Shown in pieces: positions 4,978 to 25,941 of a DNA stretch of 64,000 bases; position 1 is the first letter of the stretch; each line of letters begins with the position of its first letter. The position numbers were made by a program, and so were the translations under genes. The stretch lies in the NCBI RefSeq assembly GCF_000969905.1, contig NZ_CP009520.1:124001-188000 (forward strand), written 5' to 3'. Origin of the DNA: Methanosarcina vacuolata Z-761 (GTDB lineage Archaea; Halobacteriota; Methanosarcinia; Methanosarcinales; Methanosarcinaceae). The notes beneath the pieces are model-generated. The model made no database searches, was not told the origin of the DNA, and saw nothing but the letters and a program-made list of their open reading frames with translations.

Positions 4978-5257
4978 CTCGTATATTAAAACAGATACAG
5001 GTCTTGCATTAAATGCTGTGACTCACTTACGGAGTATTTATGTTCCTTCTTTTGGGTAAAAAGAGGAGAACAAGTCCCCCAATTGATTCTCTGTAAATGT
5101 AGCCGTAAAAGACCTTTTGAAACCCTCTAAAAATTATGGAGCGATGACTCTGAAAAATATATTTGCAGAATTTGGACTTTTTACTGATTTTTCCCTAATA
5201 AACTATGTTATCAAGGAGACTTCTTACCTTTATCTTCAAAGAGGTAGATGATTGCAT

Positions 5258-6157: not shown

Positions 6158-6179
6158 TTTTAAAACGGGGCCAATTTGT

Positions 6180-7378: not shown

Positions 7379-9358
7379 ATGTTCGGATTAAGTAAAGAAA
7401 CAGGACTCGGATTAGATAATGACCGTCTAATGAGGTTAATTTCTTTTCTGTTTCCGTTAGCTATAATCTTCGCAGTAATATTCGCGTTCTTATGGATGTT
7501 TGCAACCGGAAAGTTCGGTTATGCACTTCGGGGGATATTTACAGGAATACCTGCAATACTTTCCTGTCTTTTCATATTTTTCATTTACAAAAAAGATGTA
7601 AGTTTGCACGATATCGATATCTTTCCATCATTGAGTACAAAGTCCCTTGCGTACCTTTTCGGGATATTTTATATTGGTTCCCTAGTTGTACTTTTGCTGT
7701 CTCCGGGAAGCAGGCCTCTATGCTATTTCCTTTTTATTTTAGGACTTTATCTGTCGGTATTCTTCCAAATTTTCTCTAAAAATATAAATCCTTCTCTTAT
7801 TCTGGCGGAATCTATCTTAATCGCGGGTAATTTAATTTTCAGTGTGACTTTAAATTATGATTTCTATGTCGGTACCACAGACATCCTGCCCCATATCTTT
7901 ATTTCGGAAGTTACTGCACTGACCGGGAAAATAATTCCGACTTCCTTAAGTGATTACGCTTACTTTCCTCTTTATCATGTGTTTATTGCAGAAGCTTCTG
8001 AAATCTTGAAAATAAGCATAAAGAACTCACTTTTTGTGGTAACTGCACCTGTCTATGCAATAACCATAATTTTCCTTTATTACCTTTTTAATTACATAAC
8101 AAACAACAGGCAGATCTCACTCCTTTCATGTGTACTTTTCTCCGCAAGTTCTACCGTACTCTATTATGGTACAAATGTAATCACTCGCACAATGGCATTC
8201 ATAATGTTTATTGTATTATTATACCTGATTTATAGTGTCAATTTCAAAGAGGATAAACTTTCCTTAAAAACCCTTTCAGTAATTGTTGCAGTTTTTTTAA
8301 CTTTAGTTCACAATGTCTCCCTTCCACAGCTTGTTATATTGCTGATCATTCTTCTTGCATCGGAATATGTGATAGGGAATAACAACTATATCAGCAAACC
8401 CTTCTTTATACTGCTTAATGTCATTTTTTCCACTTACTGGTTCTTTGTAGCATACATGTTTGTACAGAGGAGCCTGGCTCCCCGTTTGCAGAGCCAGTTT
8501 TTGGATTCTATAGTTTTAACTGCTGGAGGTTCAGAAGTTCTTCAGGAAAGTTTTACTGATTTAGCAGGGCTTCTGGATAAATCGGTATTTTTATTTTTTG
8601 CATTGATAGGAATAGGTTTTCTCCTGAAAAATTACAAGAAAAATTATGCTTCTGTATTAGGGTTATTTGCTCTGTTGACTCTTATATTTTATATTCCCAA
8701 TCCCCTCAATACGATCTGGCAGTTCAAAGTCCTTTTCAGAGTTGACCGGTTTATGCTTTTCGTCAGTCCCTTTATGGCTTTCATTATGGGGTACGGATTG
8801 TATATATTCTGGAATTATATGACTAAGTATTCTTCTAAGAAATCGAACTCTGCTTTCTTAGTGATCTTATTGTTTTCGATTTTTGTTTTAGTCTCTTCGG
8901 TCTACAGTATTTCAGATTCGGGTTTTCTTGGTCAAGAAGCAAAACACGAATACTTTACTTCCGAAGAGTTGAGCGGCTTTAATCATATTTTTAAGTATGT
9001 TCCTGTCAATTCTCCAACTAAGTCGGTTTACACCGATTATTACGCTTCAAGGTTCTTTTATGTCCCGCTGATTCCTTCGAAATCTGCGGAATTGAATATC
9101 TCATCTTACGATAATTACAGAATCGGTGATGTAAATAAACTCCCGGAATACAAAGGTTATATCGTTCTCAGAACCAGAGAGTTTTTCAGGAGTGGATTAT
9201 ACTTTGGCAGTGAGGAAAGCACCCTGAAAGATACTGCCAACTATTTCTATCAGGGGTTACCCAAAAATGAGCTTGAGCTGGAAAACAACCTCAAAGGCCT
9301 TGACAAAATCTATTCAAATCCATCGACAGACATTTACATTCCGCATAAGGGGATTTAA
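7379..9358 (+). CDS. Large polytopic membrane protein, GT-C glycosyltransferase-like
   Basis: This 659-residue protein has roughly a dozen hydrophobic helices (residues 20-520) followed by a soluble C-terminal domain of about 140 residues. A conserved extracytoplasmic loop near 160-200 contains VGTTDILPHIF and later FPLYHVFIAE, recalling the acidic first loop of GT-C enzymes such as oligosaccharyltransferases and protein mannosyltransferases, which use polyprenyl-phosphate sugars. Related architecture appears at 35786-37723 (GYDAYFHASM, then FYYPLFHIF) and 45530-47338. Start: ATG at 7379 with GGAG five bases upstream. It lies downstream of two GT2 genes, one of which could make its lipid-sugar donor. 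The exact activity is inferred. Confidence 0.75.
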   Translation: MFGLSKETGLGLDNDRLMRLISFLFPLAIIFAVIFAFLWMFATGKFGYALRGIFTGIPAILSCLFIFFIYKKDVSLHDIDIFPSLSTKSLAYLFGIFYIGSLVVLLLSPGSRPLCYFLFILGLYLSVFFQIFSKNINPSLILAESILIAGNLIFSVTLNYDFYVGTTDILPHIFISEVTALTGKIIPTSLSDYAYFPLYHVFIAEASEILKISIKNSLFVVTAPVYAITIIFLYYLFNYITNNRQISLLSCVLFSASSTVLYYGTNVITRTMAFIMFIVLLYLIYSVNFKEDKLSLKTLSVIVAVFLTLVHNVSLPQLVILLIILLASEYVIGNNNYISKPFFILLNVIFSTYWFFVAYMFVQRSLAPRLQSQFLDSIVLTAGGSEVLQESFTDLAGLLDKSVFLFFALIGIGFLLKNYKKNYASVLGLFALLTLIFYIPNPLNTIWQFKVLFRVDRFMLFVSPFMAFIMGYGLYIFWNYMTKYSSKKSNSAFLVILLFSIFVLVSSVYSISDSGFLGQEAKHEYFTSEELSGFNHIFKYVPVNSPTKSVYTDYYASRFFYVPLIPSKSAELNISSYDNYRIGDVNKLPEYKGYIVLRTREFFRSGLYFGSEESTLKDTANYFYQGLPKNELELENNLKGLDKIYSNPSTDIYIPHKGI

Positions 9359-9871: not shown

Positions 9872-11077
9872 TTATTTCAAAGTCTTCTCCAAAAGCTCTG
9901 AGTATATATCCACAGTCTTTTTTGCATGGGCTTCCCAGGTCAGTTCTCTCTGAATTATGCTTTTACGCCCGAGCTTCCCCATGTTTTCTCTCTGGTTTTT
10001 ATTCTCAAGCAGTTTATTAATTTTTCTGGATAATTCTTCAGGGTTTTTTGCAGGTACCAAATACCCTGTTTCCCCATCGACCATAAGTTCAGGTATCCCG
10101 CCGACGTCGGTTGCTACAACTGGAACCTCACAGGCAAGGGCTTCAAGTACTACATTTGGTCTCCCTTCAGAAAGTGAAGGCAATACGAGGATATCCGAAG
10201 CTGAGATCCAGAGCGGGATGTTCTCATGGTTTACAGGCCCAGTGAATTTAATGTGATCTGCAATTTTGAGCTCCTGTGCTCTTTTTTCCAGACTTTTTTT
10301 CAGGCCATCGTCCCTGCCTACCATAAAAAGATTGGTGTTTGTGTTCACAAAATCCTTTGCAGCTTCAATAAGGTAGTCCACACCTTTTATTTTTCTAAGG
10401 GCTCCAACAAATAGGACGATATTCTTATCTTGTGGCAGGTTTAACAGATTCCTTGCATGTGCTTTTCCTGCAGGTTTGAACTTTACGGTGTTAACACCGT
10501 TTGGAACCACATGGACCTTTTCTTCGTTTATTCCCAGATTTACTATGTGGAGCTTGAGGTCCTCGCTGACAGAAAGAATCTTATCTGCAAAATTCATTGC
10601 CTCTATAATCTGCTTTGATGTATAGGAACCTTCATAAGCAACTTTTCTTTCTATTGTTCCGAGTGCACTTATTACAAGAGGGACTTTCCATTTCTTTGCA
10701 AGTTTCATCATCCCATACCCGTCGGGATATGAGAAGTGTGCGTGGATCAGGTCTGGTTCTGGATTTATATTTTTGATTGCGTATTCGAAAATGAAGTGAG
10801 AGTACGAAAACCCTGTTATGGGATAAAAATATTTTTTGGGGACAGCATATATATAACGTGGATAATGAAGGTCATATTTTTCGGTATGCTCAATCCGAGG
10901 CAGTTTAAAAAAGTTATAATATGGAAATACGGAAAAAGGAAGGACAAAGGGTTTTGGCGAGATGACAGTAACATCTACGCCCTGGTTTGCAATTGAGTCT
11001 ATACTCTGTTTTATGAATGTCCCAAGTTGAGGGTAATACCTGTTAGGAAATTCCTGACATGCTTCCAGTACTTTCAT
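9872..11077 (-). CDS. GT4-family glycosyltransferase
   Basis: This 401-residue GT-B fold enzyme has an N-terminal acceptor domain (about 1-200) and a C-terminal nucleotide-sugar domain. Seen motifs are LGTFIKQS near residue 19, LIHAHFSYPDGYG near 110, VPNGVN near 190, GALRKIKGVDYLIEA near 225, and EGRPNVVLEALACEVPVVAT near 305, which carries the E-x7-E motif contacting the donor sugar. It is a retaining soluble or peripheral enzyme and is single-gene here, divergent from the GT4 gene at 11280. Donor and acceptor are unknown. Confidence 0.9.
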   Translation of the reverse strand: MKVLEACQEFPNRYYPQLGTFIKQSIDSIANQGVDVTVISPKPFVLPFSVFPYYNFFKLPRIEHTEKYDLHYPRYIYAVPKKYFYPITGFSYSHFIFEYAIKNINPEPDLIHAHFSYPDGYGMMKLAKKWKVPLVISALGTIERKVAYEGSYTSKQIIEAMNFADKILSVSEDLKLHIVNLGINEEKVHVVPNGVNTVKFKPAGKAHARNLLNLPQDKNIVLFVGALRKIKGVDYLIEAAKDFVNTNTNLFMVGRDDGLKKSLEKRAQELKIADHIKFTGPVNHENIPLWISASDILVLPSLSEGRPNVVLEALACEVPVVATDVGGIPELMVDGETGYLVPAKNPEELSRKINKLLENKNQRENMGKLGRKSIIQRELTWEAHAKKTVDIYSELLEKTLK

Positions 11078-11279: not shown

Positions 11280-12464
11280 ATGTTTAAAAAAGTAAATAAT
11301 ATTTTCCTGGTTTATTACGGTTCTTTCAATGCTAAATCAGGTTCGAATATCCACATTCTAGAACTTCTGAAAAATTTAAAAAAATATACTGATATAGTCC
11401 TGTTTGCACCCGGACAGAAGAGTGTAGACCGCACTCTTCCAGGGATAAAATGCGTGCCTGTAATAGACAATAAATATCTTGTACAGCCCTCTTACGAATT
11501 CATGCTTTCTTTTTACCTTCTTTATTCTTGCATAAGAAATAGGCCTGACGTGCTCTATCTTCGCCAGAATTCTTTTCCGTTCTTTCCTATACTTCTATGT
11601 AATATTCTAAAAATTCCTTCCATAGTAGAAGTTAATGGGATAGTTCTGGATGAGTTAAAGGTCGATCCAAATTCACAGTCTTTTGCGTATAGAGTTTTCT
11701 CTCATCTTGCACTCAGGTCTGAAAACTTTAATTACAGGCACTGCGACAGAATTGTTTCAGTCACGGATAAACTCAGGGACGAACTTGTGAGACTATACTC
11801 AGTTCCTGAGAGCAAAATCTATGTTATTAACAATGGGGCAAATACTGATGTATTCAAGCCTCTGGATTCCAAACAGACCAGAGAGAAGCTGCAGCTTGAA
11901 AACTCAAAAAAGTACATATGCTTTGTCGGGAACCTTGCAGCCTGGCAGGGAGTTGAATATCTAATTCATGCCTCTCCTTTGATTCTGGAGAAATGTCCTG
12001 ATGCTCATTTCCTTGTTGTAGGAGACGGAGTTATGAAGGAGAAACTGATGGAAATAGCTTCTAGGTTAGGGCTTTCGGATAAATTTACTTTCACCGGAAG
12101 AATTCCCTACGAACAGGTTCCTCTCTACATCAACGCGGCTGATGTTTGCGTTGCTCCTTTCATCAAGGAAAGAAACTCAAAAATAGGACTTTCAGCATTG
12201 AAAACTTATGAGTACCTTGCCTGTGGAAAGCCTATTGTGGCAAGCGGTATTTCGGGAGTCAAAGATTTAATTGAAGCTTCAGATGGCGGAATTTCCGTAA
12301 CTCCTGAAGATCCTGAACAACTTGCGATTGCTGTAGTCAAATTACTTCTCGATGAAAATACCCGAGCTCTTATGGGAGAGAAAGGCCGAAGATATGTCGT
12401 TGAGAATCACAGCTGGGACGGAGTTGCAAGGAAAATTCTTGACATATGCAAAGATATTATTTAA
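11280..12464 (+). CDS. GT4-family glycosyltransferase
   Basis: This 394-residue GT-B enzyme starts MFKKVNNIFLVYYG. It carries VPVIDNKYLV near residue 60, the hinge motif NNGANTDVFKP near 185, GNLAAWQGVEYLI near 220 and the C-terminal E-x7-E-like region with KTYEYLACGKPIVAS near 310. It is closely similar to the protein at 31590-32810 (shared GNLAxWQGVEYLI, VVGDGVMK, INAxDxCxAPF and GLSxLKxYEYxACGKP patterns), so the two are paralogs within this island. It probably extends a surface polysaccharide repeat unit. No clear ribosome binding site precedes the ATG, but the frame starts where the family starts. Confidence 0.9.
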   Translation: MFKKVNNIFLVYYGSFNAKSGSNIHILELLKNLKKYTDIVLFAPGQKSVDRTLPGIKCVPVIDNKYLVQPSYEFMLSFYLLYSCIRNRPDVLYLRQNSFPFFPILLCNILKIPSIVEVNGIVLDELKVDPNSQSFAYRVFSHLALRSENFNYRHCDRIVSVTDKLRDELVRLYSVPESKIYVINNGANTDVFKPLDSKQTREKLQLENSKKYICFVGNLAAWQGVEYLIHASPLILEKCPDAHFLVVGDGVMKEKLMEIASRLGLSDKFTFTGRIPYEQVPLYINAADVCVAPFIKERNSKIGLSALKTYEYLACGKPIVASGISGVKDLIEASDGGISVTPEDPEQLAIAVVKLLLDENTRALMGEKGRRYVVENHSWDGVARKILDICKDII

Positions 12465-13217
12465 TTAACTCTTTGTAACTTGTAAAAAGAAAGTCTACAG
12501 CTTTATTCATGGCTGTATTCATAAAACAAACGCAGGCTGAGATAGTATTTTTTGTAACTTACGGCATTTTACGGCTTGAGTAAACTACCAATCTTCAATC
12601 CTGCAATTCTTCATTATTTGCTAATATTACAGCGCTGCTGTAACAGAGTTCGGCAACTATGTGATATTTATCCATGTGTCTTCGGTTAAGGAATCATTTA
12701 ACCATAACATGGCTACTAAAATTATTTACACATCTTGATTTACTTTACAGGTTTACAGAAAAACATGATAATAGTAACATTTTTCTAATAGATCGTATCT
12801 TAACCAATGACGAATGGATATTTATCTTAATTGCACTGTTTATTGCAAGGGGTTAATTAGAAACTAACAATAAATTCACTCTTTTCTCAAGATGAATTTG
12901 TGTAATTTGGAAAACTGTAATTTGGAAAACTTAACCTGAGAAACAGGCGATTTATTTTGAATTCTTTACTATAGCATCTTGTCTGGCAGTGTACCGAAAG
13001 TTCTATGAGTTATTAGTTCAGTACTTTTTCTCACATCTTTAAACTCATATAACTATCTTTTATAAAAATTTGACAAACAGTATGAAAAAACGGCCGAATT
13101 TGTAAATATTTTTTGTAAGTGTTCTTAAATTCTGCGACTGTATACGCTGTTACTACACAAATATCTATCTAACAGAAATAATTATGAATTTTTGTAATGA
13201 TTAATACTAAATCATTT
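12465..13217. other. Non-coding spacer with hairpins and a decayed beta-helix gene leader
   Basis: No supported gene. A perfect 7-bp stem (TTACAGC/GCTGTAA) lies at 12627-12643. A bulged hairpin (CCATGT and GGTTAA pairing with TTAACC and ACATGG) lies at 12672-12712. From about 12930 the sequence resembles the leader of the downstream beta-helix genes (for example CCTGAGAAACAGGCGATTTA), leading into the gene fragment at 13220. Confidence 0.45.
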
Positions 13218-13219
13218 CG

Positions 13220-13291
13220 ATGTTAAAACGAGAATTAGGAATCTTTTTATCGATGGGTTGCCTTATCCTTAAAGGTGTTATTATATATTAA
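13220..13291 (+). pseudogene. 5' fragment of a disaggregatase-type beta-helix gene
   Basis: The ATG at 13220 opens MLKRELGIFLSMGCLILKG and meets a stop (TAA) within about 24 codons. This matches the signal peptide of the complete gene at 15874 (MLKRELGIFFLVSCLILAS) almost residue for residue and also at the nucleotide level. Nothing of the mature protein follows; about 230 bases later the intact gene at 13518 begins. I read this as the leftover of a sixth tandem copy. Confidence 0.7.
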
Positions 13292-13517
13292 CCCTTTACG
13301 CTTTCAAAAATTAATTTGCGTATATAAAGCCTTTAAATTCTGAAAGGATCTAATGTTTGTAATATCTTGCCCAATATATCTGAAAATATGGGCAAACTTC
13401 CTCAAATTTTTAGCAAACAATTGTAATTTTTGCGGAGGTGTGGACACGTTACTGCACAAATATTTAATTATCAAAAATATTAATAAATTTTATTCTGATC
13501 ACCTTAAGATGATCCCG

Positions 13518-14993
13518 ATGTCAAAACGAGAATTTGGACTCCTTTTATTGGTAAGTTGCCTTATTCTTGCAAGCGTTCCTACTGCTTTATGCCAAAGTCC
13601 TGCGCCAACTGTTTATGTTGCAGGAGATGGTAGTGGAGATTTTAACTGCGATGGAAAAGATGATCATGTACAGATAAATCAGGCTCTTAAGTTTGTGGCT
13701 GATAACTCTGAATATACCACTGTCCACCTTAAAGGTCCGTTTACGTATGTTATTAACAATACTCTTCTCATCGGCAGCAATACTATTCTTGAAGGTGATT
13801 CGACTGCTGTGATCAAACTGGTTGATCACGCAGGCTGGGTTACAATGAAACCTTTGATCCAGCAGATGAGTAGTTCCGGAAATAATAACATTGTAATAAG
13901 AGGTTTCGAGGTTGATGGAAACCATGACGGTAATTACGATCAAAAAAAATATCCTAAGGGTAAAGGGTTCTATAATGTGATGTACTTCCTTTATTGCAAT
14001 AACGTAACCGTATACGATATGTACATGCACGACGGGCTCGGAGACGGACTGAGGATAAAATATGGCAAGAACGTCCAGTTTTATAACAACAAGATATACA
14101 AGCTCGGACACGACGGTATGTTTGCGATTCAGTGTCAGAATGTAGAGGCCTGGAATAATATAATAACTTGCAGGACTAACAGTGGTCTTAGAATCTGGAA
14201 CTCAAATGATGTAAAACTCCATGATAATTTCATCGATTCTTTCTACGATTGGAGCGCAGGCGGCCCGGGCATTCAGGTAGAAAAGTCTTCAGGTGCTATG
14301 GATGATATTGAGATCTACAATAATATGATCAATAATACCTACGGCCCTGGTATCTGGCTTTTCAACTATGATACCTCTGCTACCAAAGACGAGGGGAAAA
14401 ATGTCTATATCCATCACAACATTTTCTATGACACGGGCACCAATCCTAGCATTACCTGGGTTGGGGGTATCTTGGGAAGTGGATTCCATGATACACTTAT
14501 AGAAAATAATGTCTTTGACAGTGCATATAATGTTGCCATTGTCAGCATGAGTCCCGAAGGTTTTTTCTCAAATTATACGTCAGAATACACAACAATTGTC
14601 CGCAACAATATAATTGTAAATACCCAGAAGCGTACAAAAAGTCCGAGCGGAACAGGATATGGAATTGCCAATTACCTACCTGAAACACATTCCTTTGAGA
14701 TTGCATATAATTGCCTTTACAATAACTCAGCGGGTAACTATAAAGACTGCACCTCGAAAGCCGATATCCACATAAGGCCATTATTTGTAGACCAGGAAAA
14801 CCATGATTACCACCTTCAATCAAGAGGTGGAAGTTGGAACGGGAAAACATGGGTTAAATACAAAGTGAGTTCTCCATGTATTGATACCGGATATCCATCT
14901 GCTGACTATTCCAATGAACCTGAAGATAACGGAAACAGGATCAATATCGGAAGGTATGGGAACACAATCTATGCATCGAAATCAAAGCACTGA
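13518..14993 (+). CDS. Secreted right-handed beta-helix protein, disaggregatase family, single-domain
   Basis: This 491-residue protein has a signal peptide at about 1-25 (MSKREFGLLLLVSCLILASV) and then a parallel beta-helix to residue 485, with many NNx-I/V turns and a conserved block ITCRTNSGLRIWNSN near 215. The mature start has a Ca-binding-like DFNCDGKDD loop. The domain matches the disaggregatase-associated family of Methanosarcina, whose characterised member cleaves the methanochondroitin matrix and frees single cells. This copy ends straight after the helix and lacks the Ig-like and disaggregatase-repeat modules seen at 18686. The start at 13518 matches the paralogs; the frame is open back to 13353. 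A TATA-like box lies near 13320. Confidence 0.85.
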   Translation: MSKREFGLLLLVSCLILASVPTALCQSPAPTVYVAGDGSGDFNCDGKDDHVQINQALKFVADNSEYTTVHLKGPFTYVINNTLLIGSNTILEGDSTAVIKLVDHAGWVTMKPLIQQMSSSGNNNIVIRGFEVDGNHDGNYDQKKYPKGKGFYNVMYFLYCNNVTVYDMYMHDGLGDGLRIKYGKNVQFYNNKIYKLGHDGMFAIQCQNVEAWNNIITCRTNSGLRIWNSNDVKLHDNFIDSFYDWSAGGPGIQVEKSSGAMDDIEIYNNMINNTYGPGIWLFNYDTSATKDEGKNVYIHHNIFYDTGTNPSITWVGGILGSGFHDTLIENNVFDSAYNVAIVSMSPEGFFSNYTSEYTTIVRNNIIVNTQKRTKSPSGTGYGIANYLPETHSFEIAYNCLYNNSAGNYKDCTSKADIHIRPLFVDQENHDYHLQSRGGSWNGKTWVKYKVSSPCIDTGYPSADYSNEPEDNGNRINIGRYGNTIYASKSKH

Positions 14994-15194
14994 TGCATCG
15001 ATATGTTTATCGTTTCTTATATTGCGAATCCAGAGACTTGAGGTTGCATTTAAATTAACATTGATATAAGTGCCATAGCCGTTAGGAAAAACTAGACACG
15101 CGTTAAAAATTATATCCGGGAGGGATTTGAAAAAGATTCTGTATAACTTTAACGATATCATTTGATTGTATTCTTAATGATATTGCAAAGGCTG

Positions 15195-15335
15195 TCTCAA
15201 AACGACATTCAATTCTATAATTGGGATGATTCATTGATGGTAGGGGTTCAACCCTGCGTAAATTTTGGGATGATTTCCGGCTGAATTAAGTCAAAAATGT
15301 TTCCCCCAATTATAGAAATTGTTGGAGTTTTGAGA
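15195..15335. mobile_element. MITE-like element, about 141 bp, with terminal inverted repeats
   Basis: The left end has TCTCAAAAC followed by CTATAATTGGG twenty bases in. The right end, read in reverse complement, has TCTCAAAAC and CTATAATTGGG at nearly the same spacing. This gives an inverted repeat of roughly 32 bp with a few mismatches and one gap. There is no coding capacity and no clear target duplication. Confidence 0.6.
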
Positions 15336-15443
15336 TCTCCCGTAATGTTACTAAAGCTGTTTCTGACTTCGGGCCTGGCTAAAATCTTTATAGACTCTTC
15401 TTTTCATTTTACAAACTGATTAAAAATTCAAAAAGACTGCCAA

Positions 15444-15873
15444 AATATTTTTATAACATAGTGATTTAGTTCATAGTGTTGGCTATAGAAATTATTAAAG
15501 TGTTTATAGTGTTGACTATTAAAATTATTAAAGGCTAATACTCAATTTATTCACTATGATCCTTGGGGGGACTTAGATGAATTTGAGGAATTAGCCTGAA
15601 ATAAAGGGTGATTTCTTCTGGATTCCTTTGTTCCTTTGATAGGATTTAGTAGTTTTTGCTATGAACAATTTCTCTAAGAATTTCTATAGTCTTGAATGTT
15701 GGAGAGTGGATACTATTTGAAAAATCTCATCCATTATTCAATGAACTGAGTAAGAAATTTGTCTAATTATTTGACAGGCAATTTTAATTTTGTAGACAGA
15801 TGGGTACTTTTTGCCCAGCACTTACTCTGTAAATATTTTAATATACTTTTTATAGTAGTCTCAGGTGATATAG
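15444..15873 (+). promoter_or_regulatory. Long leader shared with the 18686 gene
   Basis: This region aligns along its length to 18279-18685. Shared blocks include AATATTTTTATAACAT (TATA-like), GTGTTGGCTATAGA, GGCTAATACTCA, TTCACTATG and TCTATAG-CTTGAA. It implies a 5' leader of close to 400 bases kept in both copies. A short internal duplication (TAGTGTTGGCTAT / TAGTGTTGACTAT, 32 bases apart) is unique to this copy. The ATG at 15874 has AGGTGAT just upstream. Confidence 0.55.
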
Positions 15874-17919
15874 ATGCTAAAAAGAGAATTAGGGATCTTT
15901 TTCTTGGTAAGTTGCCTTATTCTTGCAAGTATTCCTACTGCTTTATGCCGAAGTCCTGCACCAACTGTTTATGTTGCAGGAGATGGGAGTGGGGATTTTA
16001 ATTGCGATGGAAAAGATGATCATGTACAGATAAATCAGGCCCTTAAGTTTGTAGCAGGTAACTCTAAATATACTACTGTCCACCTCAAAGGTCCTTTTAC
16101 TTATGTTATTGACGATACTCTTCTCATTGGTAGCAATACTATTCTTGAAGGGGATTCAAATGCTGTTATCAAACTGGCTAACAACGCAGGTTGGGTTACA
16201 ATGAAACCTATGATCCAGCAGATGAGCAGTTCCGGAAATAAAAACATTGTAATAAGAGGGTTCGAGGTTAATGGAAACCATGACGGTAATCCCAAAGTTT
16301 CTAAGGGTAAAGGGTACTATAATGTAATTTACTTTACTAAGTGTAGTAATGTAAAAGTATACAACATGTATATGCACGATGGACTCGGCGATGGGCTGAG
16401 GATAAAATCCGGAAATAATATTCAATTTTATAACAACAAGATATACAAGCTCGGGCACGACGGTTTGTTTGCAATTGAGTGTCAAAACGTAGAGGCCTGG
16501 AAGAATACAATAACCTGCAGGACTAACAGTGGTCTGCGAATCTGGAACTCAAACCATGTAAAATTCCATGACAATGTAATTAATTCTTTCTACCACTGGA
16601 GTGCAGGCGGCCCGGGCATTCAGATCGAAAAGTCTGCAGGTGTTATGGATGATATAGAGATCTATGATAATACTATCTCTAACACCTATGGCCCAGGCAT
16701 CTGGATTTTCAACTATGACACCTCTGCTACCAAAGACAAAGGGAAAAATGTCCATATCTATCATAATGCCTTCTACGGGACAGGCACCAATCCTAGCATT
16801 ACCTGGGTTGGGGGTATTGTAGCCAGTGGGTTCCATGATACTCTAATTGAAAATAATGTTTTTGACGGCGTATATCATGCTGCTGTTATTCACATGTATC
16901 CAGAAGTTTATTCTCCAAAGTACTCGTCAAAATACACAACAATTGTCCGTAACAACATAATTGTAAATACTCAAAAACGTACAAAGTCTCCTAGTGGGAC
17001 AGGGTATGCAGTGATCAATTACATCACTAAAAACCATGTTTTTGTGTTGGAGAATAATTGCCTTTACAAGAACTCAGCAGGCAAATATAAAGGCTGCACT
17101 TCGAAATCTGACCTCTACTTAAACCCATTATTTGTAAACCAGAAAAAACATGATTATCACCTCCAGTCAGTTGCAGGTCACTGGAATGGGAAAAAATGGG
17201 TTAAGGACAAAGTTAGTTCTCCCTGTATTGATGCCGGATACGCCTCTTCGGACTATTCTAAAGAACCTGAAAATAATGGAAATAGGATTAACATAGGCAG
17301 ATATGGAAACACAATCTATGCTTCACTGTCATCCACACAAGTAAAGACTGTTCAGTCTTTGTTAACAGACTCAATCTCTGAATATACAAATGAGACTGAT
17401 GAAAATGAGACTGATGAAAATGAGACTGATGAAAATGAGACTGATGAAAATGAGACTGATGAAAATGAGATTGATGAGGATCTTAACTTTACGGAGGAAA
17501 TTTTTGACGAGGACGAAGATAATTTCACATACTCCGAAGATCTTTCTGTCGATACACAGGGTCCGGTTATTGAATCAATTCCCGAAACTACAGTTAAGAT
17601 TGGAGAAACTTTGAACTTTACAGTGAAAACGTCTGATGTGAATGGAGGCAATCTTACCTTTTCAGCATCTGATCTTCCTGCAGGCGCAAGTTTTGACAAA
17701 ACAGGGGTTTTTAGCTGGACGCCTTCAAACGGACAGGAAGGGGTATACACTGTATCTTTTGAGGTAAGCGATGGCATTTTCAACGATTCTGAAGTTGCGA
17801 TAATAAGTGTGGTTGAAGAAGCCGCTTTGAACCTTTCTAACGCGTACGACACCTACCTTTACGAAGTATCTCCTGAAGGCCTTTGTTTGAGCAATTTATC
17901 TCTCGGATTGGAGGAATGA
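15874..17919 (+). CDS. Secreted beta-helix protein, disaggregatase family, with acidic repeat linker and truncated C-terminus
   Basis: This 681-residue protein has a signal peptide at 1-25, a parallel beta-helix at about 28-490, an acidic linker at about 505-560 that begins with five NETDE repeats, and a cadherin/He-PIG-like Ig domain at about 564-650 (LPAGASFDKTGVFSWTP). The last 30 residues start like a disaggregatase repeat (YDTYLYEVSPEG) but end at a TGA where the homologous gene at 18686 continues for over 370 residues. Nucleotide alignment to that gene suggests a one-base deletion near 17899 that shifted the frame. The enzyme domain is intact, so it may still act, without its C-terminal modules. 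It is probably exported and acts on the cell matrix. Confidence 0.83.
   Translation: MLKRELGIFFLVSCLILASIPTALCRSPAPTVYVAGDGSGDFNCDGKDDHVQINQALKFVAGNSKYTTVHLKGPFTYVIDDTLLIGSNTILEGDSNAVIKLANNAGWVTMKPMIQQMSSSGNKNIVIRGFEVNGNHDGNPKVSKGKGYYNVIYFTKCSNVKVYNMYMHDGLGDGLRIKSGNNIQFYNNKIYKLGHDGLFAIECQNVEAWKNTITCRTNSGLRIWNSNHVKFHDNVINSFYHWSAGGPGIQIEKSAGVMDDIEIYDNTISNTYGPGIWIFNYDTSATKDKGKNVHIYHNAFYGTGTNPSITWVGGIVASGFHDTLIENNVFDGVYHAAVIHMYPEVYSPKYSSKYTTIVRNNIIVNTQKRTKSPSGTGYAVINYITKNHVFVLENNCLYKNSAGKYKGCTSKSDLYLNPLFVNQKKHDYHLQSVAGHWNGKKWVKDKVSSPCIDAGYASSDYSKEPENNGNRINIGRYGNTIYASLSSTQVKTVQSLLTDSISEYTNETDENETDENETDENETDENETDENEIDEDLNFTEEIFDEDEDNFTYSEDLSVDTQGPVIESIPETTVKIGETLNFTVKTSDVNGGNLTFSASDLPAGASFDKTGVFSWTPSNGQEGVYTVSFEVSDGIFNDSEVAIISVVEEAALNLSNAYDTYLYEVSPEGLCLSNLSLGLEE
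17387..17472 (+). repeat. 15-bp coding minisatellite (NETDE repeats)
   Basis: The 15-base unit AATGAGACTGATGAA is repeated about five times in frame, followed by one degenerate copy (NEIDE). It encodes an acidic, probably disordered, Ca-attracting linker between the helix and the Ig-like domain. The near-perfect repetition suggests copy number can change by slippage. Confidence 0.9.
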
Positions 17920-18278
17920 CTGATGCTTAGTAAGTTCTAAACCAAAAAACTCGCAGTCTGTGGTAAAACCAGCTCTGTTGAATCAATTCTAAATTGTGTA
18001 AATAAAGCAAGTTCTCAGAAAAATGGTCGGAATATCTTAAGAACGCAGTTAGAATGGAGTTGCAAGAATGGAATTGGAGCAATATGATCTGACAATACTT
18101 TTATGATATGTCAGAGTTTTACTCCTAACTTCCACATTCTTCTCCAACTTTTATGTTTTTTTTGTATGGTGTTTTCTCTTTCTACAAATTCATTCTTTCT
18201 GCAAATTTATTCTTTCTACAAATTTATTTGTTCTCTCTAACACTATGCAACTCTTTAAATATTTATCAAGTTTGCACA
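17920..18278. other. Non-coding spacer downstream of the truncated gene
   Basis: No gene. It includes runs of near-repeats (TTCTTTCTGCAAATTTATTCTTTCTACAAATT region, 18185-18230). I find little recognisable remainder of the lost disaggregatase repeats. Confidence 0.4.
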
Positions 18279-18685
18279 AATATTTTTATAACATTACAAT
18301 ATAGTTTACAGTGTTGGCTATAGATCTTTAATTAAGGGCTAATACTCAGACCGTTCACTATGTTTCATGGGAGGATTTGGTGAAGTCGAGAATTGGCCTG
18401 AAAATCAGGGAGATTTATTCTGAGTCCCTTATTCATTGCATTTTATCGGATTCAATATTTTTTGCCATGAATAAATTCTCCGGAACTTTTCTATAGCCTT
18501 GAACGTCTGAGAGTGAGCACTATCTAAAAAACATTATTCACTTTATGAGAATCAGAATATTAAGTTTAAGCAAATTTTTGATAAATAGTAACAAATTTTA
18601 TGGGGATATTGATACGTCACCACATGAACATCTACCTACCAAAATTAACAATATGCGCTGTTGTGATCAATCCCAGATAATCCCG
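18279..18685 (+). promoter_or_regulatory. Long leader shared with the 15874 gene
   Basis: Homologous to 15444-15873 (see that entry), with the TATA-like box at about 18283-18292. The conserved region runs up to the start codon region, where ATCCCGATG precedes the ATG, as it does for the gene at 13518. Confidence 0.55.
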
Positions 18686-21592
18686 ATGTTAAAACGAGAA
18701 TTTGGACTCCTTTTCTTGGTAAGTTGCCTTATTCTTGCAAGCGTTCCTACTGCTTTATGTCGAAGTCCTGCACCAACTGTTTATGTTGCGGGGGACGGTA
18801 GTGGAGATTTTAACTGCGATGGAAAAGATGATCATGTACAGATAAATCAGGCTCTTAAGTTTGTGGCCGATAACTCTGAATATACTACTGTACACCTTAA
18901 AGGTCCTTTTACTTATTCTATTAACGATACTCTTCTCATCGGCAGCAATACTATTTTTGAAGGGGATTCGACTGCTGTGATCAAGCTGGTTGATCACGCA
19001 GGCTGGGTTACAATGAAGCCCTTAATCCAGCAGATGAGCAATTCTGGAAATAATAATATTGTAATAAGAGGTTTCGAGGTCAATGTGAACCATGACGGTA
19101 ACACCGAGTTCGCTAAGGGTAAAGGATATTATAATGTGATTTACTTCCTTTACTGCAATAACGTAACCGTTTGCGATATGTATATGCACGACGGTCACGG
19201 AGACGGGCTGAGGATAAAATATGGCGAGAACATCAAGTTTTATAACAATACTATCTACAAGCTCGGGCACGACGGTCTGTTTGCGATTCAGTGTCAAAAT
19301 GTAGAGGCCTGGAATAATACAATAACCTGCAGGACTAACAGTGGTCTTAGAATCTGGAACTCAAATGATGTAAAATTCCATGATAATTTCATCGATTCTT
19401 TCTACCACTGGAGTGCAGGCGGGCCAGGGATTCAGGTAGAAAAGTCTGCAGGCATTATGGATAATGTAGAGATTTACAATAATACTATCAATAATACCTA
19501 TGGCCCTGGAATCTGGCTTTTCAACTATGATAGCTCTTCTGCTACCAGAGACCAGGCGAAAAATGTCTATATCCATCACAATACTTTCTATGACACGGGC
19601 ACCAATCCTAGCATTACATGGGTAGGCGGTATCATAACAGGTGGATTTGAAGACACTGTCATTGAAAACAATGTTTTTGACGGAATCTACCATACTGCAA
19701 TTGCCAATATGTATATCAACAGTTATTCTCCAACCTATGTGCCAGGAGGCGACGGATTCACAACAATTGTCCGCAATAACATAATTGTAAATACCAGATT
19801 GCGCACAAAGTCTCCGACTGAAACAGGGTATGGAATTATGAATTATCTGCCTGAAACGCATTCCTTTGTGCTGGAAAATAACTGTCTCTACAATAACTCA
19901 GCAGGTAACTATAAAAACTGCGCATCAACAACTGATATCTATGTAACCCCTCTTTTTGCAGACCCAGAAAACCATGACTACCATCTTCAGTCGGTCTCAG
20001 GCCGCTGGAACGGAAAAACCTGGGTTAAAGACAGAGTTAGTTCTCCCTGCATTGATGCCGGATGTTATTTCTCGGATTACTCTAACGAGCCCGAAGATAA
20101 TGGAAACAGAATCAATATAGGAAGATATGGAAACACGATCTATGCATCTCTTTCAGGGGTTTCTGAGGAAAATCATGCTCCCATAATAGAGCCTATTTCT
20201 GAGGTCACGGTTAAAGCCGGAGAGAACCTGAATATTCTAGTAAAAGCTTCTGATGAGGATGGAGACAGCCTTACATACTCAGCTTCTGGCCTTCCTGCAG
20301 GTGCAAGTTTTGATGGGAATTCAGGGCTTTTCAGCTGGAGGCCGGCAAATGAGCAGGAAGGTCTCTACGCGATATCTTTTGAAGTGAGCGATGGTAAGCT
20401 CAGTGCTTCTGAAGTTGCAAATATAAGTGTTGTTTTGAATCTCTTTGGAGATATGTACGACAACCGCATGCGTGAAGCTTCTCCTGAGGATGTTTTTTCG
20501 GATAAATCATTTCTCGATGTAGGAGGAATTAGCAGCGTTGGTAGATACAGAGACCTCATATGGTTTAACGTAAGCGAATACACCAATGCTACTGAAATCA
20601 GTAGTGCAAATCTTTCTCTTTTCTGGTATTATCCTTCCAGCACACGACCAAATGATACTGTTATCGAGGTCTACAGGCCTGTTTCCTGGAATCCTGATTA
20701 TGTGAGCTGGAATAAAAAGAATAAAGACATTGCCTGGAATAACGCAGGAGGAGATTGGTATGACAGAAATGGTGTCCTCCAGGGAAGTACTCCATATGCT
20801 ACATTAACCCTGAGAGCCAGTAGTTTGCCAGATAACAGGTACTATGAGCTCGATGTGACCGATCTTGTAAAAGAATATGTCAATTGCAGTTATGAAAACA
20901 CAGGTTTCCTTATAAAAGCCCGCAGTGAAAATAATAACTATATTGCCTTCTACAGCGCTGACTGCGGAAACACAAGCCAGGTACCAAAGCTTAATATTAA
21001 GAAAAGGGTAACTGCAAATGCAACTATTACTGGCGCAAAAGATAACCGCCTGCGTGAAATCTCACCTGAGGGCGTCTTTTCTGACACATCATTTATCGAT
21101 GTAGGAAAATTGAGCAATGTTGGGAGATACAGGGATGTTATTTCGTTTAATTTAAGTGAATATACCAGTACCACAGAGGTAGAAAGTGCAAATCTTTCTC
21201 TTTTCTGGTATTATCCTTCCAGCACACGATCAAATGATACTGTTATCGAGATTTACAGGCCTGTTTCCTGGAATCCTGATTATGTGAGCTGGAATAAAAA
21301 GAATAAAGACATTGCCTGGAATAACGCAGGAGGAGATTGGTATGACAGAAATGGTGTTCTCCAGGGAAGTACTCCATATGCTACATTAACCCTGAGAGCC
21401 GATAGCTTGCCAGATAACAGGTACTATGAGCTCGATGTAACTGATCTTGTAAAAGAATATGTCAGTGGCAGGTATGAAAACACAGGTTTCCTTATAAAAG
21501 CCCACAGTGAAAGTGATAACTATATCGCCTTCTACAGTGCTGACTGCGGAAATATAAGTCAGGTACCAAAACTGAATCTAGTTTACAGGTAA
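18686..21592 (+). CDS. Full-length disaggregatase-like protein: beta-helix, Ig-like domain, two disaggregatase repeats
   Basis: This 968-residue secreted protein is the most complete member of the tandem set. It has a signal peptide at 1-25, a parallel beta-helix at about 28-490, a cadherin/He-PIG-like Ig domain at about 495-588 (LPAGASFDGNSGLFSW), and two disaggregatase-related repeats at about 592-785 and 786-968. Each repeat begins DNR-x-RE-x-SPE and includes GRYRD, SLFWYYPSS, GGDWYDRNG and ENTGFLIKA. The repeats are related by a 582-base tandem duplication. The characterised Methanosarcina mazei disaggregatase combines these domain types, so matrix depolymerisation is the likely role. The start at 18686 matches the paralogs. 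No transmembrane anchor follows the signal peptide. Confidence 0.9.
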   Translation: MLKREFGLLFLVSCLILASVPTALCRSPAPTVYVAGDGSGDFNCDGKDDHVQINQALKFVADNSEYTTVHLKGPFTYSINDTLLIGSNTIFEGDSTAVIKLVDHAGWVTMKPLIQQMSNSGNNNIVIRGFEVNVNHDGNTEFAKGKGYYNVIYFLYCNNVTVCDMYMHDGHGDGLRIKYGENIKFYNNTIYKLGHDGLFAIQCQNVEAWNNTITCRTNSGLRIWNSNDVKFHDNFIDSFYHWSAGGPGIQVEKSAGIMDNVEIYNNTINNTYGPGIWLFNYDSSSATRDQAKNVYIHHNTFYDTGTNPSITWVGGIITGGFEDTVIENNVFDGIYHTAIANMYINSYSPTYVPGGDGFTTIVRNNIIVNTRLRTKSPTETGYGIMNYLPETHSFVLENNCLYNNSAGNYKNCASTTDIYVTPLFADPENHDYHLQSVSGRWNGKTWVKDRVSSPCIDAGCYFSDYSNEPEDNGNRINIGRYGNTIYASLSGVSEENHAPIIEPISEVTVKAGENLNILVKASDEDGDSLTYSASGLPAGASFDGNSGLFSWRPANEQEGLYAISFEVSDGKLSASEVANISVVLNLFGDMYDNRMREASPEDVFSDKSFLDVGGISSVGRYRDLIWFNVSEYTNATEISSANLSLFWYYPSSTRPNDTVIEVYRPVSWNPDYVSWNKKNKDIAWNNAGGDWYDRNGVLQGSTPYATLTLRASSLPDNRYYELDVTDLVKEYVNCSYENTGFLIKARSENNNYIAFYSADCGNTSQVPKLNIKKRVTANATITGAKDNRLREISPEGVFSDTSFIDVGKLSNVGRYRDVISFNLSEYTSTTEVESANLSLFWYYPSSTRSNDTVIEIYRPVSWNPDYVSWNKKNKDIAWNNAGGDWYDRNGVLQGSTPYATLTLRADSLPDNRYYELDVTDLVKEYVSGRYENTGFLIKAHSESDNYIAFYSADCGNISQVPKLNLVYR
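20459..21592 (+). repeat. Two tandem disaggregatase repeats, 582-base period
   Basis: The two repeats lie exactly 582 bases (194 codons) apart. About 270 bases in the middle (from 20603 and from 21185) are nearly identical, while the flanks differ more, indicating recent duplication or gene conversion inside the gene. Confidence 0.85.
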
Positions 21593-22353: not shown

Positions 22354-23823
22354 ATGGTGTCATATCAAAAGTTTGCAAAGGATGTTGGTTTTATCGGGAC
22401 AGTTCAGGTACTTACAAGCCTGGGAACTTTTTTCCTGCTTCCGATAATTACAAAGACCCTTGGAACATACGACTATGGACTCTGGGCTCAAATCAATATC
22501 ACTGTATCTCTCATCTCTCCACTTGCACTGATGGGCCTTTCTATGGGTTTTGTCAGGTTTTTATCTTCTGAAACGGAAATCAAAATAATAAGGGAAGCAG
22601 TATATTCAATTCTCTTTTTTGTAACTGTATCCGGTCTATTTGCCTCTTTTTTACTCTATACGTTTGCAGAGCCGCTTGCAACCTTCGGTTTTAAAGACCC
22701 TCATGCAACTTATTTTATCCAGGCAGGTTCCCTTTTAATTCTTCTGAGCGTGATCGAGTCTATATCTCTTTTTTATTTCAGGATTTTCAGGCAGATTCAG
22801 ACATTTTCTTACTTAACCCTTTTTGAAACATTTGGAAAATTGTTTTTTATTCTCTTTCTTCTCAAAATGGGATATGGGCTTCTTGGTGTAATAGCAGCTA
22901 CTCTACTTGTACAGGGCTTCATTTTTTTAATTTCTCTCCTGATGATCATATCACAAATAGGATTCGTTATCCCGAGATTTACTTACATGAAAGAGTATCT
23001 GCAATTTTCTCTACCGTTAACTCCCAATTCACTTGTAAGGTGGATTACAGAATCAAGTGACAGATATATGGTTACTTATTTTCTCGGCCTTAGAAGCGTG
23101 GGCGTATATTCGGCAGCCTGCTCAATTGGCAGTCTTATCCAGCTTTTTGTAAGCTCTCTTCAGCTCATTCTTCTTCCCGAGTTATCAAAGCTTTTCGATG
23201 AAAATAAAATGGATGAAGTCAGAATTTATATGTCTCATTCTCTAAGATATTTTCTTCTCGTCTCAATTCCTGCAGTCTTCGGGCTCTCAGCTCTTGCAAA
23301 GCCTTTGCTTGGGATCCTTACCACTGATGATTTTCTTTCGGGTTGGTTTGTAATTCCCATTACTGCCTTCTCAGGTCTTCTGGCAGGAATTTTCCAGATA
23401 TTTGTCAACACAATGCTCCTTATAAAGCAAACAAAAACAGCAACTTACATTAATATTGTTGCAGCAGTTTCGAATGTATTGATTAATCTTCTACTGATAC
23501 CTTCTATTGGAATTGTTGGAGCCTCACTGTCAACCTTATTTTCTTACTTTTTAATGTCTGTGCTTTGTATGCATATTTCCTTAAAACATTTTAAACTTGA
23601 TTTTTATCTTCATGATATTGCAAAAAGCGTTCTGTCCTCAGTAGTTATGTATCTCTTTGTTTCCTACTTCGCTATCTCAAGCATCATTGAGCTTTTTGAG
23701 ATTGCAGGTATAGGTGTACTTATTTATCTGGTTATGATGTTCCTGGTAGGCGGATTCACAGACCACGAACTTTCTTTAATACGAAGATACTTATTCAGAG
23801 TCAAAAGCGAAGTCAAGCAGTAA
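22354..23823 (+). CDS. Polysaccharide flippase (Wzx/MOP superfamily)
   Basis: This 489-residue protein has about 12-14 hydrophobic helices and the N-terminal pattern of oligosaccharide flippases (GFIGTVQVLTSLGTFFLLPI, then TLGTYDYGLWAQ). Such proteins move polyprenyl-diphosphate-linked oligosaccharides across the membrane by a proton- or sodium-coupled mechanism. Start: ATG at 22354 after AAGGTGAT. It lies between the disaggregatase-like gene and the sugar-nucleotide genes. A second flippase sits at 34229-35701, so the island may export two glycans or one glycan and a glycoprotein precursor. Confidence 0.9.
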   Translation: MVSYQKFAKDVGFIGTVQVLTSLGTFFLLPIITKTLGTYDYGLWAQINITVSLISPLALMGLSMGFVRFLSSETEIKIIREAVYSILFFVTVSGLFASFLLYTFAEPLATFGFKDPHATYFIQAGSLLILLSVIESISLFYFRIFRQIQTFSYLTLFETFGKLFFILFLLKMGYGLLGVIAATLLVQGFIFLISLLMIISQIGFVIPRFTYMKEYLQFSLPLTPNSLVRWITESSDRYMVTYFLGLRSVGVYSAACSIGSLIQLFVSSLQLILLPELSKLFDENKMDEVRIYMSHSLRYFLLVSIPAVFGLSALAKPLLGILTTDDFLSGWFVIPITAFSGLLAGIFQIFVNTMLLIKQTKTATYINIVAAVSNVLINLLLIPSIGIVGASLSTLFSYFLMSVLCMHISLKHFKLDFYLHDIAKSVLSSVVMYLFVSYFAISSIIELFEIAGIGVLIYLVMMFLVGGFTDHELSLIRRYLFRVKSEVKQ

Positions 23824-23883: not shown

Positions 23884-24843
23884 TTAGTCTACTAACTTTT
23901 CTCCAAGTAATGCCCTCGCCGTTTCCCTAATACTTCTCTCCGATGTATAGACCGGTTTCCAGCCCAAACTTTTCATTTTTTCAATCCCTAATCTCATCCT
24001 TGGCACATCGCCTTTCCAGCCTCTGTTTCCTCCTGTATAGGTAAATTCAACATTAGAAAGCCCCATCTCTTCTATAACAACCTTTCCTATCTCTGTGGCA
24101 CTGATGGTGTCTTCGGAGCCGATATTAAATATATTTACCTTTTCTTTGCTGTTCTCGATTAAAAATAATATTGCATCAACACACTCTGAAACATGAAGAT
24201 AGGATTTTTCCTGCTTGCCATCTCCCAGGATTTCCAGCAGACTAGTGTTTTTCCACAGTTTTTTTATAAAGTCAACCGTAATTCCGTGTGTACTGCGTGG
24301 GCCAACGATGTTTGCGAAGCGAAATATCCAGGCCTGCATATCAAAGGTATGAGAATATGAAGTAATAAATGCTTCACAAGCCAGTTTAGAGGCACCGTAA
24401 AGAGATATCGGAATAAGAGGGCCATAATCTTCTGGAGTAGGCATAATACTCGCTTCGCCATAAACTGTCGAGGTGGAAGTAAACGCAATTTTTTTGGTGT
24501 TGTTTTTCCTCATTGCTTCCAGAAGGTTATAGGTCGCCAGAATATTCTGATCCAGATGAACTCTGGTATCCGAAGCTCCGAGCCTTACATCAGGATTTGC
24601 GGCCACATGACAAACAAAGTCGATACCTTCACAGGCCTTCTCTATCGCCTCCTGGTCAAGGAGGTCTCCTTTTATCAGGGTGAAGTCAGGGTTTTCAAGA
24701 TGATTTTCGATAAATCCCATTTTTCCTGAACTCAGGTTATCAAAAACAGTAACTCTGTTCCCTTTTTCTATAAGGTGATCTACGAGGTGGCTTCCTATAA
24801 AACCGGCTCCTCCTGTCACAAGTATTTTATTCTTTGCAGGCAT
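23884..24843 (-). CDS. NAD-dependent UDP-sugar 4-epimerase (GalE/WbpP-type)
   Basis: This 319-residue extended short-chain dehydrogenase has the NAD-binding TGGAGFIGSHLVDHL at residue 10, the catalytic Ser/Thr region TSTSTVYGEA near 117, and the catalytic pair YGASK near 144. It resembles UDP-glucose and UDP-N-acetylglucosamine 4-epimerases. With the adjacent galU and ugd genes it would supply UDP-GalNAc or UDP-Gal plus UDP-GlcA, the precursors expected for methanochondroitin. I chose ATG 24843 because AGGAGGA lies eight bases upstream; an earlier in-frame start at 24870 has no such site. It is divergent from galU. Which hexose it epimerises is not decided by sequence alone. Confidence 0.88.
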   Translation of the reverse strand: MPAKNKILVTGGAGFIGSHLVDHLIEKGNRVTVFDNLSSGKMGFIENHLENPDFTLIKGDLLDQEAIEKACEGIDFVCHVAANPDVRLGASDTRVHLDQNILATYNLLEAMRKNNTKKIAFTSTSTVYGEASIMPTPEDYGPLIPISLYGASKLACEAFITSYSHTFDMQAWIFRFANIVGPRSTHGITVDFIKKLWKNTSLLEILGDGKQEKSYLHVSECVDAILFLIENSKEKVNIFNIGSEDTISATEIGKVVIEEMGLSNVEFTYTGGNRGWKGDVPRMRLGIEKMKSLGWKPVYTSERSIRETARALLGEKLVD

Positions 24844-25053
24844 GGAAAATCCTCCTAACAATCTTTCCAAATAATCTTTCTTTCGATTAATACTTTATAA
24901 TTCTTAAAGTAATCAGAAAATGCTTTTATCTCATTTCTTATATGTGGAATGAGTAGAGAACCAGAAAATATTAAAGATATTCTGGTTAAAGAGTATTATT
25001 TGCTTAACTATATGAATAACTTTTCACAGAAATCTTTTACCGGAGAGTTTATT

Positions 25054-25941
25054 TTGACCGTTAAAAAAGCACTTATTCCGGCAGCTGGTCTTGGGACCCG
25101 TTTCCTGCCTGCCACCAAGTCGATGCCAAAAGAGATGCTTCCGATTATTGACACACCTGTGATTCAGTATGTTGTAGAGGAAGCCATTGCCTCGGGAATT
25201 GAGGATATAATCATTATCACAGGCAGGGGTAAACGGGCAATTGAAGATTATTTCGATGATTCTCCCGAACTCGAAATGCATCTTGCGAAAAAGCACAACA
25301 CTGAACTTCTTAAACTTGTCCGGGACGTTTCGTCCCTTGTGGATATTCACTATATCCGTCAGAAAGAACCTAACGGTCTAGGGGATGCGGTCCTCAGGGC
25401 AGAAAACCATATTGGAGACGAACCTTTCGCCGTGCTTCTTGGAGACGATATTATTGTGAATGACAAACCCTGCACAGCTCAGCTCATTGAAAATTTTGAA
25501 AAGTATGGGAGATCCACGCTCGCAGTGGAAGAAGTTCCTCGTGAAAAATTAAGTAGTTATGGAATTATAAAGGGCAAGCCTCTTAGTAATTCTCTCTATG
25601 TACTGGAGGATATTGTCGAAAAGCCTTCACCTGAAAATGCTCCTTCAAATCTGGGAGCAATAGGTCGCTATGTTTTCACTCCTGAAATCTTTGACTGTAT
25701 AAAAGAGGCCGGGACAGGGGTAGGAAACGAAATCCAGCTGACTGACGGAATTCGGGTCCTTAACAGGTCGCAGATGATCTACGCATGCAGGTTCAAAGGA
25801 AAAAGATTCGATACCGGTGACAGGTTAGGATACGTAAAATCAATAGTGGATTTTGCCCTTGAAAACGAGAATCTTAGAAAAGACGTACTTGAGTACCTGA
25901 GAGAAATTCTAGCATCGGTCAAGGAACCTTCAGATAAATAA
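25054..25941 (+). CDS. galU: UTP-glucose-1-phosphate uridylyltransferase
   Basis: This 295-residue enzyme makes UDP-glucose from UTP and glucose-1-phosphate. It carries the nucleotidyltransferase signature PAAGLGTRFLPATKSMPKEM at about residue 9, IQYVVEEAI near 35, QKEPNGLGDAVL near 105 and LLGDDI near 127. The start is most likely TTG at 25054 (LTVKKALIPAAG), preceded by GGAGAG; the frame extends to 24949 but those 35 residues are not part of the family. UDP-glucose would feed the UDP-glucose dehydrogenase encoded convergently just downstream (26130-27413). Confidence 0.93.
   Translation: MTVKKALIPAAGLGTRFLPATKSMPKEMLPIIDTPVIQYVVEEAIASGIEDIIIITGRGKRAIEDYFDDSPELEMHLAKKHNTELLKLVRDVSSLVDIHYIRQKEPNGLGDAVLRAENHIGDEPFAVLLGDDIIVNDKPCTAQLIENFEKYGRSTLAVEEVPREKLSSYGIIKGKPLSNSLYVLEDIVEKPSPENAPSNLGAIGRYVFTPEIFDCIKEAGTGVGNEIQLTDGIRVLNRSQMIYACRFKGKRFDTGDRLGYVKSIVDFALENENLRKDVLEYLREILASVKEPSDK

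Follow-up and report, generated by a model that had tools for sequence, protein, structure and literature searches.

What a cluster of disaggregatase-like genes is doing among polysaccharide genes, and which polymer those genes make, are the questions raised by a locus of Methanosarcina vacuolata Z-761. Aggregating Methanosarcina, relevant in anaerobic digesters, have methanochondroitin as their main matrix, and the biosynthesis of this polymer was outlined decades ago from intermediates. It consists of glucuronate and N-acetylgalactosamine, and publications of 2015 and 2025 described its biosynthesis genes as unidentified (PMC4582637, PMC12369344); aggregation has been tied to resistance to a virus and to oxygen (PMC12369344). 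The window analyzed here, 64,000 nucleotides at positions 124,001-188,000 of NZ_CP009520.1 (genome G000), holds five disaggregatase-like genes, named DAG1 to DAG5 by position. We consider it probable that they encode secreted or surface-anchored Dag-type beta-helix depolymerases cutting the cell's own matrix polysaccharide, and that they lie inside the locus that most likely builds it.

All five genes matched Beta_helix and PF08480 (Disaggr_assoc), the latter with E values of 4e-71 to 4e-90, far over the cut-off; the match of DAG4 lacked the C-terminal part of the domain. The genome of 4.56 Mb contains 11 PF08480 genes, five of which lie in the window within about 40 kb (scan bound 1.4e-5), and eleven PF08480 proteins have been reported for M. 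barkeri CM1 (PMC4582637). A preliminary description, made from the letters of this DNA, had read three complete, related secreted beta-helix genes in tandem, found here at 13518-21592, and two more family members at 41758 and 51638. It had also assigned them to the disaggregatase family and described differing C-terminal ends (none, Ig-like plus broken repeat, Ig-like plus two repeats, one repeat, hydrophobic tail). The domain searches bore out these readings, with Pfam returning PF08480 and PF06848. The frames of DAG1 and DAG3 are open over 13353-14993 and 18545-21592, respectively, and their likely starts at 13518 and 18686 were judged from the leader common to the copies. The remnant of a further copy, likewise described before, is real but small: its 131 bp at 13149-13279 hold only the leader and about 20 signal-peptide residues, with 74% identity to 13448-13568 (E 5e-14).

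The tandem copies DAG1 to DAG3 are 77-83% identical in pairwise DNA comparison, the similarity extending into the 5′ flank, and their catalytic regions share 78-82% amino-acid identity. Pairwise omega values of 0.15-0.18 correspond to purifying selection, which rules out positive selection between the copies and contradicts the earlier term "diversifying" in the selection sense. The tandem copies are thus conserved in their catalytic sequence, and their diversification is in the C-terminal modules. Beyond the catalytic domain, the tail measures 10 residues in DAG1, 179-203 in DAG2, 396-487 in most DAG3 and 41-46, with a PGYxxWW motif, in DAG5, and the type of C-terminal end is specific to the gene position and conserved there across species. 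DNRLRE repeats number two in DAG3 and one in DAG4, with a truncated one in DAG2 and none in DAG1 and DAG5. PF06848 was matched by DAG3 in two stretches (E 9e-168), and CBM96, a family of polysaccharide-binding modules (PMC9971899), was matched by the repeats of DAG3 (E 1.6e-15) and of DAG4. Since the repeats match CBM96 and the tails are kept by position, it is reasonable to infer that the C-terminal modules target the DAG proteins differently.

Phylogenetic analysis revealed positional orthologues of DAG2 and DAG3 in several species of the M. barkeri group and of DAG1 in some, while DAG4 (19 rows) and DAG5 (21 rows, dispersed copies included) formed clades of their own next to the DAG1-3 clade. 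DAG1 to DAG3 are probably in-locus tandem duplicates in which the catalytic domain stayed the same while the C-terminal modules, for binding to substrate or wall, came to differ, giving a free short form, a form with Ig and a form with Ig and CBM96-like repeats. DAG4 and DAG5 would be older paralogues, possibly membrane-tethered.

The catalytic domain of DAG3 was modeled with AlphaFold on a 64-sequence alignment (residue numbers follow P0003). The model is a right-handed beta-helix with a predicted local distance difference test score (pLDDT) of 89 and a predicted template modeling score (pTM) of 0.91. In the fold search, the closest solved folds were AlgE epimerases, GH87, GH28 and RbmB, a biofilm lyase of Vibrio, with the adhesin PfbA also among the matches, and a search with P0003 did not find a solved structure of the catalytic domain itself. 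AlgE4 was also matched in a sequence-profile search (E 8e-8). An AlgE-type active site could be ruled out, however, as the positions of Tyr149, Asp152 and His154 align to non-matching residues, so that the enzymes may be either lyases or hydrolases. Four polar residues stand out, H242 and R269 as invariant and D220 and D243 as almost invariant, and all four are retained in DAG1 to DAG5. Placed on successive turns by their sequence spacing, D220, H242, D243 and R269 appear to be the best candidates for the active site.

The locus of about 50 kb that surrounds these genes encodes GalU, a UDP-glucose dehydrogenase (UGD), a 4-epimerase-like short-chain dehydrogenase/reductase (SDR), two flippases and eight predicted glycosyltransferases (four GT2, three GT4 and one DUF354), a gene content that supports the matrix-polysaccharide setting proposed in the preliminary description. 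GalU scored over its cut-off with UGD adjacent; the best model for UGD was AglM at 601 bits, under its cut-off of 670. GalE-1 (3ehe) and a methanogen SDR (8rdg) are among the closest solved relatives of the SDR and do not fix its substrate. The predicted make-up of the locus is that expected for an exported glucuronate-containing polymer. GalU and UGD would supply UDP-glucuronate and the SDR may supply UDP-GalNAc; the repeat unit would be assembled by the glycosyltransferases, exported by the Wzx-type flippases and possibly polymerized by the multi-transmembrane (TM) proteins.

The locus is syntenic in nearly all Methanosarcina examined. The order GT2a-GT2b-mem659-GT4a-GT4b-DAG-Wzx1-SDR-GalU-UGD-DUF354-...-GT2c-DAG4-DAG5 recurs genus-wide with 59-99% protein identity, and the tandem DAG genes number 1 to 4 across genomes. 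In 11 of 11 genomes measured, the UGD orthologue lies 6-16 kb from the nearest PF08480 gene, a proximity with a 2-4% chance per genome under random placement, where the genomes share ancestry and are not independent. The link is kept even in G001 and G010, in which the locus is broken. Nearly every good genome has GT4b and mem659; G001 and G023 are without both, and G025 lacks GT4b only. Confinement of the locus to Type I species could be ruled out, as six Rnf genomes retain both genes.

A link to the known disaggregatase comes from genome G009, identified as M. mazei by a PylRS 100% identical to the M. mazei sequence. Its locus encodes a PF08480 protein with three PF06848 repeats, and the ATG at frame residue 19 gives exactly 1077 amino acids. 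Dag is reportedly a protein of 1077 amino acids (3234 bp) with three DNRLRE repeats (Osumi et al. 2008), and by this length the M. mazei protein is our candidate for Dag. The only other long M. mazei frame, adjoining Wzx1, showed no start codon where 1077 amino acids would result. In the tree, the 1077-residue protein groups in the DAG1-3 clade. Its gene (G009:C1:194535-197822) lies on the opposite strand, between mem659 and a GT2a copy together with extra glycosyltransferase genes, and beside a second DAG5-like gene. The earlier interpretation, of matrix-cleaving enzymes with different targeting modules placed among the matrix genes, is partly supported, namely by the family, the setting, the module set kept by position and the M. 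mazei candidate in the same locus and clade. Its diversification in sequence did not stand, and cleavage of methanochondroitin, synthesis of that polymer by the locus and control of packet formation and dispersal from it are putative.

G001, which we take to be M. acetivorans, lacks the canonical arrangement. GT4b and mem659 were not found genome-wide and GT2a and GT2b were not found at the locus site, while loss of the GNAT gene could be ruled out, an orthologue being present elsewhere in the genome. M. acetivorans has been reported to lack a methanochondroitin capsule (PMC12369344). G023 retains SDR, GalU, UGD and GT2c; close orthologues of GT4b, GT4c, mem659, GNAT and DUF354 were not found there, nor were any canonical DAG genes, and canonical DAG1-3 were not found in G001 either. 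Both genomes carry a second polysaccharide-type locus (G001:C1:1228744-1282216 and G023:C5:80667-108468) with three PF08480 genes each, in which the flank is similar (72-83% identity) and the middle, with flippase, GT4, DUF354-like and deacetylase genes, is divergent. Several transposase-like frames were seen in the second locus of M. acetivorans. In the tree, the two PF08480 triplets are separate clades, independently expanded, and in each of them a single long protein carries Ig and 2-3 DNRLRE repeats, which its shorter companions lack. Nothing argues more strongly for sets of depolymerases moving together with matrix loci than this repetition of a long-plus-short triplet in separate clades, and matched depolymerases accompanying their synthesis locus would be the best reading of these sequences. 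With the M. mazei candidate, the genus-wide synteny and these alternative loci, the window locus becomes a strong candidate for methanochondroitin synthesis.

Two viral contigs of IMG/VR carry clear PF08480 homologues; in deposited phages, searched with P0005, none was found. The first (L109:5896-11007, IMGVR_UViG_2627853753_000003) encodes a 1703-residue tail protein in which three disaggregatase-type domains in a row, 47, 43 and 31% identical to DAG1, are joined to a further copy of the neighboring tail protein (47% identity); it is likely a virus-borne matrix depolymerase. In the second (L110:5998-10836, IMGVR_UViG_3300025000_000137), a 1612-residue protein with an N-terminal disaggregatase-type domain is encoded directly after a tape-measure gene (phrog_1533, E 3e-113). 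The presence of the domain in viral tail proteins is an independent fit with a matrix-breaching function. A wider picture, to which we give somewhat less than an even chance, is that interchangeable polysaccharide loci encode the matrix types of Methanosarcina, each with its own independently expanded disaggregatase set, the window holding the methanochondroitin version and M. acetivorans and G023 the alternatives, and that viruses acquired this domain for tail depolymerases with which they breach the matrix.

Table 1. Predicted genes of the locus, with positions in the window and the evidence for each assignment
Feature	Position	Strand	Evidence
GT2a glycosyltransferase	5252..6157	+	PF00535 E 1e-28; syntenic
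GT2b glycosyltransferase	6135..7193	+	PF00535 E 3e-31; syntenic
mem659, multi-TM protein without family, possible polymerase or GT-C enzyme	7379..9358	+	13 predicted TM
GT4a glycosyltransferase	9872..11077	-	PF00534 E 7e-49
GT4b glycosyltransferase	11280..12464	+	PF00534 E 8e-34
5′ remnant of further disaggregatase-like gene (leader, start of signal peptide)	13149..13279	+	74% DNA identity to 13448-13568, E 5e-14
DAG1, secreted beta-helix PF08480 protein without C-terminal module	13518..14993	+	PF08480 E 1.8e-79
DAG2, beta-helix PF08480, acidic linker, Ig-like domain, truncated DNRLRE repeat	15874..17919	+	PF08480 E 5e-81; He_PIG E 6e-14; positional orthologues
DAG3, beta-helix PF08480, Ig-like He_PIG domain, pair of DNRLRE (PF06848/CBM96-like) repeats	18686..21592	+	PF08480 E 3.5e-82
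Wzx1-type flippase	22354..23823	+	PF13440 E 2e-22
SDR of UDP-hexose 4-epimerase group	23884..24870	-	PF01370; PDB 3ehe GalE-1 E 1e-109
GalU, UTP-glucose-1-phosphate uridylyltransferase	24949..25941	+	TIGR01099 (equivalog) 378.7 bits vs 326.8 cut-off
UGD, UDP-glucose 6-dehydrogenase (putative UDP-glucuronate supply)	26130..27413	-	PDB UDP-glucose dehydrogenases E 1e-99
DUF354 glycosyltransferase-like protein	28507..29595	+	PF04007 E 2e-23
Deacetylase-like protein	29579..30628	+	VimE model E 4e-29, under cut-off
GT2d glycosyltransferase, 319-codon open frame	30594..31544	+	PF00535 E 2e-15
GT4c glycosyltransferase	31590..32810	+	PF00534 E 6e-34
FemAB/GNAT-like transferase	32939..33946	+	PF13480 E 3e-12
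Wzx2-type flippase	34229..35752	-	PF13440 E 8e-19
Multi-TM protein without family	35786..37738	-	11 predicted TM
GT2c glycosyltransferase	39722..41323	+	PF00535 E 2e-27
DAG4, beta-helix PF08480, one DNRLRE repeat, hydrophobic N-terminal segment (possible anchor)	41758..43881	-	Domain search; tree
Multi-TM protein, weak DUF6541	45530..47338	-	Domain search; TM prediction
Polysaccharide deacetylase-like protein	48197..49114	-	PF01522 E 4e-17
DAG5, beta-helix PF08480, conserved ~45-residue PGYxxWW...hydrophobic tail	51638..53251	+	Domain search; tree

Some frames of the region call for comment. The N-terminal half of the GT2d frame contains no ATG, GTG or TTG, so that a gene call based on start codons shortens GT2d to 196 amino acids. 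The frame at 49421-51082 on the minus strand is probably no membrane protein, as no TM segment was predicted; by eye it resembles an insertion-sequence transposase, it had no Pfam match, and it was not found in the loci of the other genomes. A second nucleotide-sugar dehydrogenase, of the 479-residue type (G000:C2:121811-122386), lies immediately upstream of the window, in a neighboring cluster that many genomes keep close to the locus.

Several observations weigh against the attribution of the five genes to a methanochondroitin locus. The other six of the 11 PF08480 genes lie outside the locus, among unrelated genes and away from glycosyltransferases of the window type; one of them (L010) was seen by eye near a MurG-like glycosyltransferase. 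PF08480 occurs in 55 of 186 Methanosarcinales genomes, other genera included, and in Clostridiaceae metagenome-assembled genomes, and the family is thus not specific to the polymer of this locus. The gene loss in M. acetivorans could be a single block deletion, and the sequence matches fix neither the substrate of the SDR, nor the specificities of the glycosyltransferases, nor which protein is the polymerase. The first two of these would suit a locus for another glycan, such as an N-glycan, an S-layer glycan or another glucuronate-containing capsule, trimmed or remodeled by disaggregatase-like enzymes, as would the second dehydrogenase at G000:C2:121811 and the three polysaccharide clusters listed for M. 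barkeri CM1 (PMC4582637). We nevertheless regard this as unlikely. Oligosaccharyltransferase (STT3) genes, whose linkage to the locus was looked for, lie more than 650 kb away, so that no linkage speaks for an N-glycan locus; GalU and UGD suit a glucuronate polymer, the M. mazei Dag candidate sits in the locus, and up to three CBM96-like repeats are atypical of glycan-trimming enzymes.

The enzymes themselves may be read differently, with catalysis lost or changed in DAG1, DAG2, DAG4 and DAG5, which would act as matrix-binding structural or adhesive proteins and leave only the long DNRLRE form enzymatic. Beta-helix proteins do include adhesins such as PfbA, the AlgE triad is not conserved, and DAG4 lacks part of PF08480, but retention of the four candidate residues in all five proteins and the purifying selection on the tandem copies make this quite improbable. 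Incidental co-location, the genes having multiplied at a duplication hot spot in a fast-evolving surface locus, would account for the variable tandem copy number and the truncated copy. We give it very little credence, because the association is kept genus-wide and through the rearrangements of G001 and G010, and recurs in the alternative loci, where G001 and G023 have different clades of PF08480. Depolymerases encoded beside the genes for their own matrix thus remain our preferred explanation; action on methanochondroitin, the tethering of some DAG proteins and a timing and control of the DAG genes by which packet formation and dispersal could be governed from one locus may go with it. In the Clostridiaceae genomes, the PF08480 proteins (L024:10007-12430 and L023:9950-12016) are encoded among bacterial genes (SLH, Ku, LysM), and the one in L024, which also has a cohesin domain, is possibly a bacterial enzyme against the Methanosarcina matrix.

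If the attribution is correct, the locus provides a short list of genes for deletion in genetically tractable species and physically links matrix synthesis and dispersal. Among Type II species, a capsule would be expected in those that keep the locus (G007, G008, G010, G011, G021 and G024). The attribution would also suggest that M. acetivorans is without a capsule through loss of specific assembly genes and may make another polymer with its own depolymerases.

Among known systems, the M. mazei Dag candidate is the nearest, with the same PF08480 catalytic family, clade and locus and with DNRLRE repeats as in DAG3 and DAG4. The candidate carries three repeats and lacks an Ig domain, whereas among the five paralogues of the window the repeat number is 0, 1 or 2 and Ig domains are added. 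The AlgE-type mannuronan C5-epimerases and lyases are the best fold and sequence neighbors among solved structures, but their catalytic Tyr, Asp and His are not conserved at the aligned DAG positions. CBM96/DNRLRE domains, matched by the DAG3 and DAG4 repeats, support a polysaccharide-binding role, alginate being the polysaccharide on which CBM96 was characterized (PMC9971899). Finally, Vibrio cholerae RbmB, a structural neighbor, is a right-handed beta-helix polysaccharide lyase that depolymerizes the matrix (PMC11637428). It is a single bacterial enzyme acting on another polysaccharide, without a match in the sequence-profile search, yet it sets the precedent for a matrix depolymerase encoded beside its matrix genes (PMC11637428).

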